Positions 26,454-38,293 of a stretch of DNA of 38,293 nucleotides are shown one piece after another. Made by a program: the position numbers and the translations under genes. The DNA is from a virus. Below the pieces are notes generated by a model. The model was not told the DNA's origin. It did no database searches and saw only the letters and a list, made by a program, of their open reading frames with translations. The DNA lies in the IMG/VR virus record IMGVR_UViG_3300032093_000365, positions 1-38,293 of that record. The stretch is one strand, 5' to 3'. Within the stretch, counting starts at the first letter, position 1; each line of letters opens with the position of its first letter.

Positions 26454-27032
26454 TCACCAATTAAATTTTGCGTTTGCGATTGCCTTCTTGTCGTCCGGCG
26501 CGCGCTTTGCTTTGCGTGACGTTCCTTCTTGGTAGCAAACGCGATGATGCCCCGCGCACCAAGGGCCGCGCTCCGATGACACCGGCCGTCCGCAGAATGA
26601 AAATTCAAACTTCGGATCGCCGAACATAAACAAGCATCGGCCGGGACGCATCGTGTCGTAGTTCATTGCCGAGCCGTCTTCTTGCGAGATGGGCGACAAC
26701 AAGTCTTCGCGAACAAGCGAAGGCTTTGGCGGCGGCGGCTCTTTCTTCTTTGTGTTCGTCTCCCCCTTCTTCGACTTGTGCCGGAGCCGCGCGTTGTTAT
26801 CTCGACGCACACGGCGTTGAGTGTCCTCCGGGCGCGTCCATTGCATGCGTCCCGATTGGCGCAACACGCGGATTTGTCCCGCGATTGCGCTAACCGAAAC
26901 CGGACGGCCCATTACCTCCGTCATCTTCTTTGCGCAGAAGGATTGCGACTGCCCGTCAACGTCAAAGAGTTTGATCAAGAGCGCCTTGTTCTCTGGCGTC
27001 CACGGCAATAGCTGAGCTTTGCTCGTACCCAT
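26454..27032 (-). CDS. GcrA-like cell-cycle regulator homologue
   Basis: A 192-residue protein. The N-terminal domain (LLPWTPENKALLIKLF, then a helix-turn-helix around residues 30-60) and the C-terminal GRCLFMFGDP...FCGRP...WCAGHH segment (about 131-163) match the two-part design of GcrA. In Alphaproteobacteria GcrA binds sigma-70 RNA polymerase and acts at CcrM-methylated GANTC promoters. The middle is Lys/Pro-rich and disordered. The ATG at 27032 overlaps the upstream stop as TAATG. It precedes the excisionase-like and int genes in the leftward operon. A phage version could retune host or phage promoters. Confidence 0.72.
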   Translation of the reverse strand: MGTSKAQLLPWTPENKALLIKLFDVDGQSQSFCAKKMTEVMGRPVSVSAIAGQIRVLRQSGRMQWTRPEDTQRRVRRDNNARLRHKSKKGETNTKKKEPPPPKPSLVREDLLSPISQEDGSAMNYDTMRPGRCLFMFGDPKFEFSFCGRPVSSERGPWCAGHHRVCYQEGTSRKAKRAPDDKKAIANAKFNW

Positions 27033-27697
27033 TAGATCGAAATCTCCGCGTCGTCGCGGCGATCCTGCCACGCCGCTTCAACGCGATCCGCTTCTTCCGG
27101 ATGCGTCGCGCGCGCCGCTTCGATGTACTCGGCGTTGTCTTCGTAGATCGACTTGGCGCGATCGAAGGGGAGCTTCGAGATTGCATCGACTAGCGCGCTT
27201 TGCCACTTGGCCGGCGCGACCTGGGTCGGACCATTCTTGCCGAGTAGCGTAAGCTTAGGCTCGCTCGACTTCTCCGCTGGCTTGGCGGCTTTGCGTTCGA
27301 CCAACGGAGCGACCGTGTATTGAACGCGCTTAGTCTTGGCGGTCGAAAGCGCCATCGACTTCTCGCCATCGATGCCGCTCATGTGACTGATGCGAATGCC
27401 GCCGACTGCGATGCCGCCGAACAACACATTCGGATCACGATAGAGCGTCATCGCCTTACCGATATATGCCTCTGAATTCACGCCCCAAACTGCGACCATG
27501 ACGCGGCGCATCGACTTGCAAGGCAGATAAGGCTTGCCGTTGTCGCCCTCAAAGAAGACGGCGATCGGTTGCTCCGGCGACGATACGCGCGCCGTTACCT
27601 TTGTGATCGTGATCGTGCGTGGGCCGGCGATTAGGTCGTCGGAATTCAATTGGTCAGACTTCGGCGCAATGGTCGCCGCCATATCAACGTTACTCAA
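27032..27697 (-). CDS. Early-operon protein, unknown function
   Basis: A 221-residue protein. The TTG start at 27697 is backed by GGAGG seven bases upstream and a TTGA overlap with the preceding gene. Residues 30-130 look beta-rich with patterns TITITKVTARVSSPEQP and MTLYRDPNVLFGGIAVGGIR, resembling a conserved phage protein that often sits near recombination genes. The C-terminal third is helical and charged. It could be a single-strand DNA-binding or recombination accessory protein, given the adjacent exonuclease, but no definite family is recognised. Confidence 0.6.
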   Translation of the reverse strand: MSNVDMAATIAPKSDQLNSDDLIAGPRTITITKVTARVSSPEQPIAVFFEGDNGKPYLPCKSMRRVMVAVWGVNSEAYIGKAMTLYRDPNVLFGGIAVGGIRISHMSGIDGEKSMALSTAKTKRVQYTVAPLVERKAAKPAEKSSEPKLTLLGKNGPTQVAPAKWQSALVDAISKLPFDRAKSIYEDNAEYIEAARATHPEEADRVEAAWQDRRDDAEISI

Positions 27698-34405: not shown

Positions 34406-34562
34406 CCTATCGGGGATAGGTCTCCTGCTAGTGTTCTCGGCCCCACTTAGGATTATCACGGCGACGCTGCGTAACTGGCCCCGGTAGGCTATGGGTTCGC
34501 CCCGGTTAAGCGTCGCAATGCCGAGACGTTCGCCGAATAATCACGGCGGCATGTTAAACGAA

Positions 34563-34598
34563 AACGGCCCCCGCTGCGGAAATCGCGCGGGGGCCGTT
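34563..34598. terminator. Bidirectional intrinsic terminator
   Basis: Twelve-base arms (AACGGCCCCCGC and GCGGGGGCCGTT) with an inner GCG/CGC stem. Plus-strand downstream has CCATTTT and minus-strand downstream has TTTTCGTTT, so it can stop both the rightward replication operon and any leftward readthrough from the accessory array. Confidence 0.8.
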
Positions 34599-34700
34599 CC
34601 ATTTTGGCGCGGTGGAGGGGTGTCCGCGCCGGGTGGTCGATCTCGTGGTGTGCGGGTTCCTCCCTAATCATGGTAACGTCAAGCAACGTCAGGCCAATAG

Positions 34701-34733
34701 CACCTTATCGCCTTTATCACCTTATCACCTTCC
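34701..34733. repeat. Three imperfect CCTTATCAC direct repeats
   Basis: CCTTATCGC, CCTTTATCAC and CCTTATCAC follow each other with 8-9 base periodicity. They resemble short iterons, just beside the helicase gene. They may be protein-binding sites of a replication origin, but could be chance. Confidence 0.35.
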
Positions 34734-34735
34734 AT

Positions 34736-34767
34736 AAAAAAGGGGCCGGCCCGAAGGCCGACCCCTT
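34736..34767 (-). terminator. Terminator of the leftward accessory operon, UUCG loop
   Basis: On the minus strand AAGGGGTCGGCC pairs with GGCCGGCCCCTT (one G-T pair) around a TTCG loop and is followed by six T. It lies just after the stop at 34771. Confidence 0.9.
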
Positions 34768-34770
34768 CCC

Positions 34771-35556
34771 TTATGCTGCGGCCTTCTTGCGACCGTTGAA
34801 TACGCCAGCAAGCCACCAGCCCTTGCCCTTGGCTTTCGCCTTTAGCTGGGCCAGCGCTAGATCGTGCTCGCGCTCCTGGCGGCGCTCTCGGCGCTCGCGC
34901 TCTTCTCGACGCTCGCGTGCGGTACGCTCGGCCGGGGTCTCCGGCTTGACGCGCCACAGCATCGAAGCGGCCAGCATGTTCGTCACGTAGAGAAACGCGG
35001 CGAACGCGAAGCACGCGAACCAAGTTCCGTCAATTTGCGCTCGCGTCGGGGTGATGCCTTGCGCCATCCTTGCCCGCGCTTGGTCGCGCTCCATGACGTC
35101 AGTGCTCTCACGAGCGACGCGGGCATATTCCCGCGCCTGATCGGACGCCGCGAAGGCTTCCGCCGCATCGACCTGTTGCGGAAAGGCGAACCCGTCCGCC
35201 GCTTTTAGGATCGGTGCGGCAAGCATGACGAACGCCAACGCTTGCGCGCGCCACGCCGTCGCTTGCACTTCCGGCCGTGGATCGGTGCGGCGTTCGCCGG
35301 CGACGTAAGCCGCCAACATGCCGACCAAACCCGACGCGGTAATGATAACGCCCTCAATAAACGCCATCGGGATTTGAACCCCTAGGATTGGCGCGCGCTC
35401 GTGGTTTGTTAGGAATAGGTAAGCCCATCCAAACGTTTCAAGCGCCACTGTGATTGCCAGCGTCATAACGACAAGCGGGGCATTCCGCAGTGACGCACCA
35501 CAAGCGCGGCCAAATCGGCGCAGCATTAGGCGCAATTCATGCCAGTTGATTTGCAT
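34771..35556 (-). CDS. Multi-span membrane protein with charged C-terminal tail
   Basis: A 261-residue protein with hydrophobic segments at about 27-48, 60-86, 103-120 and 185-212, then a Glu/Arg-rich coiled tail (residues 213-245). The ATG at 35556 was chosen because CCGGAGGAAGA sits just before it; the longer upstream frame has no ribosome site and would read through the hairpin. It is the last gene of the leftward array. A role in superinfection exclusion or membrane sensing is possible, without motif support. Confidence 0.65.
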   Translation of the reverse strand: MQINWHELRLMLRRFGRACGASLRNAPLVVMTLAITVALETFGWAYLFLTNHERAPILGVQIPMAFIEGVIITASGLVGMLAAYVAGERRTDPRPEVQATAWRAQALAFVMLAAPILKAADGFAFPQQVDAAEAFAASDQAREYARVARESTDVMERDQARARMAQGITPTRAQIDGTWFACFAFAAFLYVTNMLAASMLWRVKPETPAERTARERREERERRERRQEREHDLALAQLKAKAKGKGWWLAGVFNGRKKAAA

Positions 35557-35589
35557 AAATCTTCCTCCGGCGCGCGGAATTGCGCGCAC

Positions 35590-35624
35590 AAAAAAGCGCC
35601 GCACGCATTGCTGCGGCGGCGCTT
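35590..35624 (-). terminator. Junction hairpin H1
   Basis: On the minus strand a 12-bp stem with one bulge (AAGCGCCGC-CGC / GCG-TGCGGCGCTT) is followed by six T, four bases after the 35628 gene stop. Unlike the others, the next ribosome site lies further on, about 25 bases beyond the T-run. Confidence 0.8.
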
Positions 35625-35627
35625 CGT

Positions 35628-35828
35628 TTATGCAAGCTTTGAGATTGATCCGTTTAGCCGCTTCGCCATCGCGCGCGCCTCTCGGTTGGCTGCATCTGGC
35701 GTTGCGTGTAAGCGCTCTTCGAGCACGCGGCCGACTTCGTTCCAAGAATTCGCCGGCAAGAATGCGCGCACGCGAAACTTGCGCGCGCCATGTTTGAACA
35801 CTGCAACGTCAATCAATTGGTTGTCCAT
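35628..35828 (-). CDS. Small accessory protein (array gene 1)
   Basis: A 66-residue basic protein with an N-terminal beta-hairpin-like region (DVAVFKHGARKFRVRAF) and a C-terminal helix rich in Ala and Arg (DAANREARAMAKRL). The ATG at 35828 has GGAGGT seven bases upstream, directly after the T-run of H2. I recognise no family. Confidence 0.6.
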   Translation of the reverse strand: MDNQLIDVAVFKHGARKFRVRAFLPANSWNEVGRVLEERLHATPDAANREARAMAKRLNGSISKLA

Positions 35829-35843
35829 GTGTGCTACCTCCAC

Positions 35844-35877
35844 AAAAAAAAGCGCCCGCCGGTTAGGGCGGGCGCTT
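35844..35877 (-). terminator. Junction hairpin H2
   Basis: An 11-bp perfect stem (AAGCGCCCGCC/GGCGGGCGCTT, loop CTAACC on the minus strand) with eight T, two bases before GGAGGT of the next gene. Confidence 0.88.
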
Positions 35878-35879
35878 CG

Positions 35880-36146
35880 TTATTCGGAATAGGCGCTTTC
35901 GATGCGTTCGCCTGAGTGAGCGCAATAAAGGTCAGCGTCTTCCCAATTGATGTCAGCAACAGCAGGAAGCCAACAGCCGTATTCGCCATTGATGGCGGCG
36001 CGCATTAAGTCTGCGTGTTCCTCGGCGGATTTGAAGCTGATCGCCTCACCGTCCGCCATGATGAAATAAATCGGATATCCGCCGGGCCACGCATAAGGGC
36101 CGTTGCGTAGAGCCGAATTCAATTCATCGATTGACATATTCGTCAT
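35880..36146 (-). CDS. Small accessory protein (array gene 2)
   Basis: An 88-residue acidic protein. Recognisable pattern: YPIYFIMADGEAISF, then INWEDADLYCAHSGERIESAY at the C-terminus, a form I believe recurs in small phage and plasmid accessory proteins. Conserved-looking Cys, His and Arg near the end could bind metal, but the count is too low for a full site. The ATG has GGAGGT five bases upstream after H3. Confidence 0.62.
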   Translation of the reverse strand: MTNMSIDELNSALRNGPYAWPGGYPIYFIMADGEAISFKSAEEHADLMRAAINGEYGCWLPAVADINWEDADLYCAHSGERIESAYSE

Positions 36147-36159
36147 GTGTCACCTCCAC

Positions 36160-36193
36160 AAAAAAGGGGCGCGACCCTTGCGAGCCGCGCCCC
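36160..36193 (-). terminator. Junction hairpin H3
   Basis: Eight-base perfect arms GGGGCGCG and CGCGCCCC with a twelve-base loop, followed on the minus strand by six T, then GTGGAGGT of the next gene. Confidence 0.8.
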
Positions 36194-36197
36194 TGAT

Positions 36198-36293
36198 TTA
36201 CGTGATCTGCCCTAGCACCTGGCCGACGCGGCGAACGGCGCGATAAACGCCATAAGCGAACGCGAACACAAGACCGCCAATGATTAGCGACAT
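36198..36293 (-). CDS. 31-residue single-span membrane peptide
   Basis: The peptide begins MSLIIGGLVFAFAYGVYRAV, a single hydrophobic helix with a basic C-terminus. The ATG lies two bases after the stop of the 36296 gene, with GGGGATTGA inside the end of that gene as a ribosome site, so translation is coupled. This is the one junction in the array without a hairpin. Confidence 0.5.
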   Translation of the reverse strand: MSLIIGGLVFAFAYGVYRAVRRVGQVLGQIT

Positions 36294-36295
36294 AT

Positions 36296-36490
36296 TCAAT
36301 CCCCTACATTTTCCCATGTGTTCGCGAACGCGGCCGGCCCAAAGAAAATAGCGCCAGCTAAAACCGCAAACGGAATGCACGCAAATTCGTTCGACATGAG
36401 CGCGGCGAGAAAACCCCACGCGCCAAACAACGAAACGATGCCAAGCCACGAAATTGAAGCGCAGGCAAAGCGGTAAAGTGTGTGCAACAT
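36296..36490 (-). CDS. Two-span small membrane protein (array gene 3)
   Basis: A 64-residue protein with hydrophobic segments at about 10-32 and 38-57 (ISWLGIVSLFGAWGFLAAL and CIPFAVLAGAIFFGPAAF). The ATG has GGAGGT seven bases upstream after H4. It pairs with the following 31-residue peptide by translational coupling, so the two may form one membrane complex. Confidence 0.58.
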   Translation of the reverse strand: MLHTLYRFACASISWLGIVSLFGAWGFLAALMSNEFACIPFAVLAGAIFFGPAAFANTWENVGD

Positions 36491-36506
36491 TGTAGTACCT
36501 CCACAA

Positions 36507-36543
36507 GAAAAGAGCGCCGCACGCGGTTAGGCGTGGGCGCTCT
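36507..36543 (-). terminator. Junction hairpin H4
   Basis: A 13-bp stem with one bulge (AGAGCGCC + ACGC paired with GCGT + GGCGCTCT), loop CTAACC on the minus strand, followed by a broken T-tract TCTTTTCTT. The same CCTAACCG loop occurs in H2 and H7. Confidence 0.75.
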
Positions 36544-36546
36544 AAT

Positions 36547-36756
36547 TCAGTCGCTTAGGCTTGGCGTGTCGCCTTCGTCGGGGCCGTGAATTGTCATCGC
36601 CGACGAAAGCTTGACGCCATCGTCAAGGCGCAAATCCCGGCCTAGGTGGATGAATTCGTATTCTGTAGCGCGCGCCATTTCGAGCGCTTCCGCTTCGCTG
36701 TCCGCTTCAATGTAGAGTGTGCCATAGATTCGGACGTCAATTGTGTATTCTGCCAT
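36547..36756 (-). CDS. Small acidic accessory protein (array gene 4)
   Basis: A 69-residue acidic protein with an opening beta strand (MAEYTIDVRIYGTLYIEA), then a helix SEAEALEMARA, then DLRLDDGVKL. The DSEAEALEMAR form is common in small phage proteins of unknown role. The ATG has GGAGG eight bases upstream after H5. Confidence 0.6.
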   Translation of the reverse strand: MAEYTIDVRIYGTLYIEADSEAEALEMARATEYEFIHLGRDLRLDDGVKLSSAMTIHGPDEGDTPSLSD

Positions 36757-36772
36757 GTGTGTTGCCTCCAAC

Positions 36773-36806
36773 AAAAAGGGCGCGAAGCCGAAGCCTCGCG
36801 CCCTTT
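36773..36806 (-). terminator. Junction hairpin H5
   Basis: An 11-bp perfect stem AAAGGGCGCGA/TCGCGCCCTTT followed by T residues on the minus strand; the ribosome site GGAGG follows three bases later. Confidence 0.85.
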
Positions 36807-36811
36807 CCGTT

Positions 36812-37039
36812 TCAGTATTGATACGTGACGATCATGCACACGCACGCGCCGCTCAGGTCCAACCGGAATTGATCACCATAGTTTGACCACGCGCCGCGCC
36901 CATGTAGCCCTGCGACGCGACGCGCGCGGCGCATTGTTTTCTGTGCCGTCTCGCCTTCTTTCGCTGTCATTTCGAACCGGCGAAACCACGAATAATTGGC
37001 TTCGCCTCCGAATGTGTCTGTCACTTCGATTGACCACAT
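36812..37039 (-). CDS. Small basic accessory protein (array gene 5)
   Basis: A 75-residue protein with an opening strand pattern MWSIEVTDTFGGEANYSW, a basic helix (KTMRRARRVAGLHG) and a hydrophobic C-terminal strand ending VCMIVTYQY. Two Cys lie near the end. The ATG has GAGGT five bases upstream after H6. I do not recognise a family. Confidence 0.6.
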   Translation of the reverse strand: MWSIEVTDTFGGEANYSWFRRFEMTAKEGETAQKTMRRARRVAGLHGRGAWSNYGDQFRLDLSGACVCMIVTYQY

Positions 37040-37051
37040 TTTGCACCTCAC

Positions 37052-37082
37052 AAAAAAGGGCCGCGCCTTTCAGCGCGACCCT
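37052..37082 (-). terminator. Junction hairpin H6
   Basis: A 10-bp stem with one mismatch (AGGGCCGCGC against GCGCGACCCT) and six T, followed two bases later by GAGGT. Confidence 0.78.
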
Positions 37083-37090
37083 CTTCCGTT

Positions 37091-37279
37091 TCAATATCCG
37101 TCAATGCGCGCCGCGTGCAAAACGCCACGCGCCAGCGCCATCGCATCGCCGCCCTTGACGATCATGCGCAACGCTTCGAGCGCAATTAGGCCGGCGCGTT
37201 GTTTGTCGGTTAGCGCGTTCCAATCGGCCCGGTTTTCGTCCGATGCCTTTTTGACGCATTCGATCCATGATGCTTGCAT
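37091..37279 (-). CDS. Small helical accessory protein (array gene 6)
   Basis: A 62-residue helical protein (WIECVKKASDENRADWNALT, then LIALEALRMIVKGGDAMAL). The ATG has GGAGGT six bases upstream after H7. No motif identifies a function. Confidence 0.6.
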   Translation of the reverse strand: MQASWIECVKKASDENRADWNALTDKQRAGLIALEALRMIVKGGDAMALARGVLHAARIDGY

Positions 37280-37293
37280 GTGCTTACCTCCAC

Positions 37294-37325
37294 AAAAAAA
37301 AGCCCCGCCGGTTAGGGCGGGGCTT
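37294..37325 (-). terminator. Junction hairpin H7
   Basis: A 10-bp perfect stem AAGCCCCGCC/GGCGGGGCTT with loop CTAACC (minus strand) and eight T; a near copy of H2. GGAGGT follows. Confidence 0.88.
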
Positions 37326-37328
37326 CGT

Positions 37329-37505
37329 TCAATCGAGAAAGATCACAACCCACGGCAAGGGGTCGCCCTTGTATCGCGGCGCGTGCCGATATGTCGGCCG
37401 CTCAGCTTCGCAGACGATATCTTGCGCGATGTAATCATCTAGCGCCCATGAAGCGCGATCAGCCGACTTGTGGCGACTGTAAACGTATTCAATTTGCTCG
37501 ATCAT
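37329..37505 (-). CDS. Small accessory protein (array gene 7)
   Basis: A 58-residue protein (MIEQIEYVYSRHKSADRASW...WVVIFLD). It was found by following the hairpin-ribosome-site pattern: GAGGT lies five bases before the ATG after H8, and the stop at 37329 is four bases before H7. It has a helical N-terminus and a short hydrophobic end. Function unknown. Confidence 0.58.
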   Translation of the reverse strand: MIEQIEYVYSRHKSADRASWALDDYIAQDIVCEAERPTYRHAPRYKGDPLPWVVIFLD

Positions 37506-37517
37506 GGTTCACCTCAC

Positions 37518-37552
37518 AAAAAAAGGGCCGGAGCATCGCTGCCCCGGCCCTT
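37518..37552 (-). terminator. Junction hairpin H8
   Basis: A 9-bp perfect stem AAGGGCCGG/CCGGCCCTT with a twelve-base loop, then seven T and GAGGT two bases later. It follows the stop of the DUF932-like gene. Confidence 0.85.
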
Positions 37553-37558
37553 CGCGAC

Positions 37559-38293
37559 TTACGCCGCTTTGAGTTTTCTCATTTCCTCGGCAAGCGTCCA
37601 CAAGGCTTGATTAATCTTGCGGTCGCCATCGATGTTACGAACCGGACGCGATGCACGCGGGCGAACCCGGTTGTGCTCATCGCGCACTTGGTAGCCAACG
37701 CCACCACGGATCAAGTTTTCTTGGATCGCATTGAATGCGCCCCAAACGGTGCCGGTGTTGTCCGCCGCGCGACGCGGGCGAAGCAATTGCTCCGGTTCCG
37801 GTTGTGGGTCGCCCTCATCCCAACGCAAGCGACGTGCAGCGGCGGCAAGCGCCAATTGCTCGTTTCTGTTGAGATTCGCGGCGTCCATCTGGCCCGCGTG
37901 CTCGATTGCAAGGGGGCCGTCCGAGATCACGCGGTAAGCGCCTTCAATCACTTCGCCAATCACGTCGCCCTTGTGAGGGACACGAACTTGCGTCGTGACG
38001 CCTTCCGGTATCATCAAGCCATTGAGACACACGCAACGCATAAGCGCGGCGTCCATCACATAGGCTGACGTGCCATCGTGGGAATTCAGAAGCGAAACTT
38101 CTGGATAGAGCCCACCAAGTGTCAGAGCGTGTTGAACTTCGCCCGCTTTGCGCAGGCGAATTAGATGCTTGGTAAAGCCGCGCTTTTCTTCGTCGCGGCT
38201 CCCGCCCTGGCGCACCTCAACCGGCATCAAACCGGCTTGGCGCAACCCGCGAAGCATCTCGCGTGTCGGAATGTACGTATAGCGTTCACTCCG
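37559..38293 (-). CDS. DUF932-like phage/plasmid protein (5' end outside window)
   Basis: At least 244 residues of a protein of the DUF932 (phage/plasmid-like) family, first gene of the visible leftward array. The frame stays open to the right edge; the segment SERYTYIPTREML precedes the first internal Met and matches the opening of this family, and RQGGSRDEEKRGFTKHL and GGLYPEVSLLNSHDGTSAY are its core. The N-terminus lies beyond the window. DUF932 proteins are common on conjugative plasmids and some phages and are of uncertain function; links to anti-restriction or DNA transfer have been suggested. H8 follows its stop. Confidence 0.78.
   Translation of the reverse strand, partial: RSERYTYIPTREMLRGLRQAGLMPVEVRQGGSRDEEKRGFTKHLIRLRKAGEVQHALTLGGLYPEVSLLNSHDGTSAYVMDAALMRCVCLNGLMIPEGVTTQVRVPHKGDVIGEVIEGAYRVISDGPLAIEHAGQMDAANLNRNEQLALAAAARRLRWDEGDPQPEPEQLLRPRRAADNTGTVWGAFNAIQENLIRGGVGYQVRDEHNRVRPRASRPVRNIDGDRKINQALWTLAEEMRKLKAA

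Follow-up and report, generated by a model that had tools for sequence, protein, structure and literature searches.

How does a phage express a row of genes when a hairpin of the kind that stops transcription follows nearly every one of them? The question is raised by the minus strand of the IMG/VR contig IMGVR_UViG_3300032093_000365, analyzed here over its whole 38,293 nt (the window). The array there begins with a DUF932 gene, continues with eight tiny genes of 31–88 aa and ends with a membrane-protein-like gene of 261 aa. Between its genes lie eight GC-rich hairpins, each with a U-tract, and a ninth closes the array. With such a hairpin after each gene, the phage must somehow read through about eight in a row. 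The array is known from this one contig.

Genes and hairpins of the array

The phage is temperate and podo-like, and profile searches of its proteins found integrase and S24 repressor genes. It also encodes a GcrA homologue (PF07750, E = 1e-12). GcrA and CcrM are highly conserved across Alphaproteobacteria (PMC3667746), and the homologue suggests that the host is probably alphaproteobacterial. No DNA similarity to known phages or plasmids was found.

Coding-frame scoring ranked the annotated frame above the other five for 10/10 array genes. This result and the PHROG homologues of g3 (in phages of Caulobacter and Agrobacterium) and g7 suggest that the tiny ORFs are genes. The first gene, g0, matched PF06067 (E = 2.9e-32) and phrog_12094. 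The label "DNA ligase" attached to the g7 family is doubtful. Structure models of g3 and g7 had pLDDT values of 92 and 94, and neither predicted structure matched a PDB fold. A profile search with g9 gave no family match. The features are listed in Table 1.

Table 1. Genes and hairpins of the array, in the order of transcription
Feature	Position	Strand	Details
g0, DUF932 gene, first in array	37559..38293	-	frame open past contig end; listed ATG 38257; codons in frame to 38293
Hairpin J0, 11 bp GC core	37525..37550	-	T7 37518-37524, then GTGAGG, ATG 37505; stop-to-stem 8 nt
g1, 58 aa	37329..37505	-	open frame, top score of six frames
Hairpin J1, 8 bp core, loop CCTAAC	37302..37323	-	T8 37294-37301, GTGGAGG 37287-37293
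g2, 62 aa	37091..37279	-	open frame, top score of six frames
Hairpin J2, 10 bp core	37058..37081	-	T6 37052-37057, GTGAGG
g3, 75 aa, phrog_22729 family	36812..37039	-	E = 7.1e-9
Hairpin J3, 11 bp core, UUCG loop	36778..36803	-	T5 36773-36777, GGAGG
g4, 69 aa	36547..36756	-	weak PHROG matches, E = 0.003-0.005
Hairpin J4, loop CCTAAC, one bulge	36512..36542	-	interrupted T-tract TTTTCTT, GTGGAGG; weakest score, 24
g5, 64 aa, hydrophobic	36296..36490	-	open frame, top score of six frames
g6, 31 aa, hydrophobic	36198..36293	-	ATG 2 nt past g5 stop (TGA-AT-ATG)
Hairpin J6, 12 bp core, GCAA loop	36166..36193	-	T6 36160-36165, GTGGAGG
g7, 88 aa, phrog_18452 family	35880..36146	-	E = 1.6e-21
Hairpin J7, 9 bp core, loop CCTAAC	35852..35875	-	T8 35844-35851, GTGGAGG
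g8, 66 aa	35628..35828	-	open frame, top score of six frames
Hairpin J8	35596..35622	-	T6 35590-35595, then second small hairpin GCGCGC/GCGCGC, then CGGAGG (CGGAGGAAGATTTATG)
g9, 261 aa, membrane-protein-like, last gene	34771..35556	-	open frame
Hairpin J9, 10 bp core, UUCG loop, array end	34742..34765	-	T6 34736-34741
Second terminator-like hairpin, then GTTTTCGTTT	34566..34595	-	read from sequence; about 175 nt past last stop

An earlier note on this DNA had described eight junction hairpins with U-tracts and, behind seven of them, an SD and start codon, as a terminator fused to the next initiation site. Both observations were confirmed. All nine sites had the anatomy of an intrinsic terminator, a GC-rich hairpin directly before a U-tract, with d-scores of 24–63 (d'Aubenton-Carafa formula). 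The GC-core stems had 8–12 pairs and core dG values of -18 to -26 kcal/mol, and the first T-run was 4–8 nt long (interrupted in J4). At 7/8 junctions, J8 being the exception, an SD (GGAGG or GAGG) and an ATG stood directly behind the T-tract. The gap between U-tract and SD was 2–4 nt there, and in seven junctions the stem base lay 18–23 nt from the ATG. The g5–g6 junction was without a hairpin. From this anatomy, we infer that the hairpins may have real termination activity. The additional hairpin behind J9 is a possible backup terminator.

Stem and loop sequences varied across junctions while the hairpin itself was kept. J1 and J7 lie between non-homologous genes and shared 94% identity over 53 bp; their stems differed by a paired insertion, G in the 5' arm and C in the 3' arm. 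The hairpin structure therefore looks selected. Three hairpins do share the loop CCTAAC(CG), as the earlier note said, except that they are the second, fifth and seventh, not the second, fourth and seventh. We rejected this loop as a protein-binding site, since it occurs in 3/9 hairpins only and two of those are duplicates. Bidirectional termination was also rejected, as the T-run is absent on the plus-strand side. The motif ACG(G)AA, reported to follow the stop codons, was present in five of the nine junctions and not in all.

Chance, stop-codon spacing and relatives

A strict scan of positions 34700–37560 (minus strand, 2.86 kb) found 7 terminators and 6 terminator–SD–start composites. Three hundred dinucleotide shuffles gave means of 0.083 and 0.007, respectively, with maxima of 2 and 1. 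In the remaining ~35 kb of the window, the same scanner at a looser threshold returned 4 terminator-like matches and no composites.

The distance from stop codon to stem start was 4–9 nt at 9/9 hairpins. In other phage loci, 24% of the 220 terminators lay within 9 nt of a stop; the chance that nine would all be so close is 0.24^9 = 2.6e-6, with independence assumed. The two other terminators of this genome with a clear upstream stop were 25 and 28 nt away from it. The closeness to stop codons had been noticed before; what had been missed was that a coupled ribosome blocks terminators at such positions (PMC4824070).

In the loci, the viral contigs and the ~780 genomes covered by motif searches, no second array of this kind was found. 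The strict motif SSSSNNTTTTTTGTGGAGGT occurred 3 times in this phage stretch, in 12 single stretches in IMG/VR and in 0 of 398 genomes. The loose motif TTTTTTGTGGAGG..ATG gave, among the IMG/VR matches listed, no more than one or two composites in any locus. When a looser motif was run on 385 genomes from a single class, the matches were scattered, and the listed ones formed no cluster within a few kb. Relatives were also sought by protein. The primase search returned the same phage only, the g9 search returned nothing, and the terminase search returned the same phage and a locus at 38% (L320), which had no array within its 15.5 kb. The DUF932 homologue loci (L002–L008, L129–L139) had no arrays, and a terminator lay downstream of 2/79 g7 homologues and 18/79 g3 homologues (13–33 nt). 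The earlier proposal that related phages lacking the hairpins would speak against the idea had a mixed answer: distant g3, g7 and DUF932 homologues mostly lacked them, and no close array-bearing relative was found.

Readthrough and its possible mechanisms

If each serial site terminated 90% of transcripts, 1e-8 of them would reach g9, so readthrough or internal promoters would be required; at 12% each, the fraction would be 0.36. We infer that the array would be a single leftward operon, transcribed end to end through readthrough. Ribosome masking would be the most economical mechanism. The operon would have a genuine intrinsic terminator at every junction except g5–g6. Because each hairpin starts so near a stop codon, a ribosome finishing a gene close behind RNA polymerase would cover the 5' arm, and the terminator would fail. 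The polymerase would then pass to the next SD–ATG, right behind the U-tract. If a gene were not translated in step, the hairpin would form and transcription would stop. Translation of each gene would thereby license transcription of the next. The outcome would be a stepwise dose gradient and silencing of stray or untranslated transcription.

Published work is consistent with this mechanism. In E. coli, lambda tR2 was almost fully repressed at short distances from a stop codon (constructs from 8–9 nt) and reached an efficiency of ~0.9 once more than 30 nt away (Li et al., PMC4824070). Ribosomes prevent terminator hairpins (PMC5021804), ribosome-repressed, stop-proximal termination at the pyr attenuator is among the work cited in PMC4824070, and Proteobacteria fall outside the phyla classed as runaway-transcribing (PMC13323073). 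Some points count against masking. Most array genes are only 96–267 nt long, so coupling here may be weak; terminators lying within ~100 bp of the start of a coding region escaped repression, as the ribosome had not caught up (PMC4824070). J9 is also stop-proximal, though the end of an operon should terminate. Stop-proximal terminators might result from genome compactness or economy alone. We favor the whole reading, a readthrough operon with terminators masked while the preceding gene is translated, only tentatively, at somewhat less than an even chance. A translation-gated terminator ladder in the full sense, a tiny-gene operon in which transcription of each gene depends on in-step translation of the preceding one, with a built-in dose series and shut-off when ribosomes lag, is possible, with the chances against it.

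Processive antitermination is a serious rival, which we consider rather unlikely. A factor or RNA element of N, Q or put type would modify polymerase at the array promoter so that all terminators were ignored; unmodified polymerase would halt at the first one, which would keep the array silent in the lysogen, or until the factor was made. A series of eight strong terminators is where antitermination would classically be expected, and the phage is temperate. However, no known antiterminator family, N/Q-like ones included, was found in the ~20 non-structural proteins scanned, a scan that unfamiliar antiterminators would escape; the DNA on the promoter side of the array lies off the contig. The array had no Rfam match, and boxA/boxB-like signals were not above chance on the contig, which ends within g0. 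Antitermination also leaves the stop distance of every hairpin unexplained. Separate, unrecognised promoters for the individual genes, read by a phage RNA polymerase or a divergent host sigma, with the terminators as insulators, are very improbable. Sphingobium phage Lacusarx does have terminators followed by a repeated GTTAACCTTAAC element, but this motif is absent from the array. The earlier statement that promoters have no room between hairpin and SD held: the 2–4 nt gap at seven of the eight junctions leaves none. Sigma-70-like sites in the array numbered 0 against 2.0 expected, by a consensus from which alphaproteobacterial promoters diverge. The 200 nt upstream of each start had no excess over shuffles by the same consensus, which may not suit such a host. 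No phage RNA polymerase was matched in the proteins scanned, those of the structural region only in part.

The hairpins could instead protect message 3' ends, with RNase E-type cleavage in the U-tracts producing single-gene mRNAs and termination weak or incidental. With a hairpin at its end and an unobstructed SD following, each gene would become a stable unit of its own, and the distance from stem base to ATG leaves the SD open. We judge this unlikely, since U-tracts at 9/9 sites are a specific mark of intrinsic termination that a stability hairpin does not need. RNase III sites have stems of ~20 bp or more, and the GC-core stems of 8–12 bp are short for that enzyme. Equally improbable in our estimate is cassette accretion, in which gene, terminator and initiation site form a mobile cassette recombining at similar junctions, a moron-like residue with little regulatory role. 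The near-identity of J1 and J7 fits it, most array genes lack homologues in the collected loci, and g4–g6 stand here between g3 and g7, which many other phages have side by side. The remaining junctions have little sequence in common, however; morons also carry promoters, of which none was seen, and the terminators did not travel with the g3 and g7 genes, as the homologue counts indicate. Cassettes would still need readthrough, so accretion is compatible with the masking reading.

Known parallels and significance

A close likeness is to the lambda tR2 constructs (Li et al., PMC4824070), with a hairpin and U-tract within ~10 nt of a stop between two cistrons and low termination predicted while the upstream gene is translated. 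Those are engineered or single E. coli sites, whereas the array has nine natural serial sites, eight before another gene and seven fused to an SD. The SAS/ESAS of cluster K mycobacteriophages (PMC3203893) are likewise repeated elements found where translation of non-structural phage genes begins, some of them with inverted repeats. SAS is a conserved 13-bp sequence, and ESAS are 17-bp inverted repeats for which RNA hairpins are little supported (PMC3203893); in the array, sequences vary and the RNA hairpin and U-tract are kept. The earlier note was right that these elements differ: the 13-bp SAS GGGATAGGAGCCC had 0 matches beside start codons at up to 2 mismatches. In Lacusarx (L141) and a 102-kb IMG/VR contig (L234), both with a g7 homologue, intrinsic terminators likewise separate small phage genes or groups of them. 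In both, the next start follows the terminator only after a leader or promoter-like repeat of ~100 nt or more, in contrast to an SD at 2–4 nt in the array. The lambda N/Q operons also contain terminators to be passed, but these are few and spaced (the same scanner counted no more than 2 in any 3 kb), and no N, Q or nut was found for the array. Phage T4 has stable intercistronic CUUCGG hairpins between genes. UUCG loops occur in 2/9 array hairpins only (J3 and J9), and the first 50 kb of T4 gave a maximum of 3 terminators and 0 composites per 3 kb. The component parts are already known; the ladder of them in series is a new arrangement.

If the hairpins terminate and ribosomes permit passage, the array would be a compact natural test bed for transcription–translation coupling, with eight terminators of different strength at near-constant spacing in a single short operon. 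Should a phage factor be responsible instead, it would be a new antitermination system in a small alphaproteobacterial phage. Either way, the ~50 nt junction cassettes, each combining a terminator with an initiation site, would be useful building blocks for graded expression.

Array genes and junction hairpins

The tiny ORFs of the array behave as genes. Two of them, g3 and g7 (array genes are numbered g0 to g9 in order), are members of phage protein families. Their structure models had pLDDT values of 92 and 94, respectively, and a PDB search with both models gave no match. The g7 family, phrog_18452, carries a "DNA ligase" label in PHROGs and in some RefSeq phage records. The label is doubtful because the family protein has only about 88 aa, too small for a ligase, and it is probably a propagated error.

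Features of the window and ends of same-phage contigs
Feature	Position	Strand	Remarks
GANTC sites	25024, 36727, 37873		CcrM methylation site
GcrA homologue	26454-27071	-	PF07750, E=1.1e-12; near exonuclease and integrase genes
Array	right end of window	-	DUF932 gene running off the contig, eight tiny genes, 261-aa membrane-protein-like gene
g7	35880-36146	-	phrog_18452
Contig L128	stops at 34492		array end left uncovered
Contig L319	begins near 729		array end left uncovered

The earlier note had claimed eight junction hairpins, most of them followed by a ribosome-binding site (SD) and a start codon. Reading and folding the junctions confirmed all eight, and one further hairpin was found at the array end. 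The nine hairpins (J0 to J9, named by the preceding gene; there is no J5) have GC-core stems of 8-12 pairs with core folding energies of -18 to -26 kcal/mol. A T-tract lies behind each, that of J4 being interrupted. In seven of the eight junctions, (G)GAGG follows at 2-4 nt and then ATG; the stop-to-ATG spacing is 49-56 nt in these seven and 71 nt in J8. A strict scanner, which misses J4 and gives J8 a low score, found 7 terminators and 6 composites (terminator, SD and start codon fused), versus means of 0.083 and 0.007 in 300 dinucleotide shuffles. There are few terminator-like sites in the remainder of the genome.

Stems at all nine array sites start 4-9 nt past the stop codon. The same closeness was observed in 24% of the terminators behind ORFs in other loci (n=220). 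Under this background the chance of nine out of nine is 2.6e-6 if sites are independent, a condition broken by J1 and J7, which are copies. Two other terminators of the genome lie 25 and 28 nt from their stops.

The phage and its probable host

The virus record is 38,293 bp long. The plus strand carries the terminase, connector, tail and virion genes, the minus strand an integrase gene. The phage also encodes RusA, a primase/helicase and an S24-type repressor. The phage is temperate and podo-like. Known phages share only 20-27% identity with it in the portal protein comparison, indicating that it is without a close described relative. Two IMG/VR contigs are assigned by sequence identity to the same phage: L128 (99.99% DNA identity over 8.7 kb) and L319 (identical terminase). 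Neither covers the array, which is known from a single contig. Their ends could be chance or strain variation.

GANTC was by far the most avoided among the palindromes tested, with 3 sites seen and 189.5 expected (63-fold depletion; Markov-1, whole window). This depletion and the GcrA homologue point to an alphaproteobacterial host with a CcrM/GcrA system. The phage-encoded GcrA homologue may redirect host sigma-70 polymerase.

Comparison with other phages

Caulobacter, Brevundimonas, Agrobacterium and Sphingobium phages carry homologues of g3 and g7, which in some Caulobacter phages are inside the annotated terminal repeat. IMG/VR contained 367 stretches with g3 homologues and 198 with g7 homologues. 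The two homologues are neighbours in many of these phages and stretches. Of 79 loci with each homologue, 18 (g3) and 2 (g7) had a terminator behind it; most of these sites resembled one another and lay about 21 nt past the stop.

No comparable array was found in the collected loci; the next densest had 4 terminators within 3 kb and no SD fusion. Segments of T4, lambda, phiC31 and TM4 contained 1-3 terminators per 3 kb and at most one composite. The strict junction motif, present three times in the window, was absent from 398 genomes and occurred only singly in 12 IMG/VR stretches. Because single terminator-SD fusions are present elsewhere (L040, L057 and L151), the joint is not unique, but the series of joints is unique among the loci and genomes searched. 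Intrinsic terminators inside operons and ribosome-masked terminators are known parts. A ladder of this kind, serial, stop-proximal and SD-fused, turned up nowhere else in this search, and library searches of open-access papers gave no description of one.

Other arrangements were also observed. L234, a 102-kb IMG/VR contig, has a repeated leader: several genes are followed by a terminator, a long leader with TGTCGCGGGTGTGGG and GTACCATTA repeats, and the next gene. Sphingobium phage Lacusarx has 7 palindromic GTTAACCTTAAC-type elements in 12 kb, several right behind terminators, and Brevundimonas phage Marchewka has 14 in 12 kb. This promoter-like repeat is common to these unrelated alphaproteobacterial phages.

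Probable readthrough of the array

We infer both termination and readthrough in the array, as we do the host. The earlier note saw no room for separate promoters and proposed antitermination as one way past the hairpins. No promoter-like sequence was found within the array, which supports the former and implies that readthrough is needed. The note's interpretation is supported in part, with antitermination as a possible mechanism. By calculation, eight terminators would be passed by 1e-8 of transcripts at 90% termination each and by 36% at 12% each. When the stop codon is close, tR2 in E. coli is almost completely repressed because the ribosome blocks hairpin folding; beyond 30 nt its efficiency reaches ~0.9 (PMC4824070). 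Such ribosome masking would let polymerase past the array terminators and would need no extra factor. The phyla that PMC13323073 classes as runaway-transcribing do not include Proteobacteria. The short genes may leave too little time for the ribosome to catch the polymerase. Since the promoter side of the array is missing from the contig, the DNA immediately beyond the contig end could encode an antiterminator or contain a nut-like site.

J1 and J7 are 94% identical over 53 bp and lie between unrelated genes. What separates their stems is a paired insertion, G in one arm and C in the opposite arm, so pairing is kept. Such copying suggests that the junctions may in addition provide homology through which cassettes are exchanged, a role that would still leave readthrough of the array necessary.
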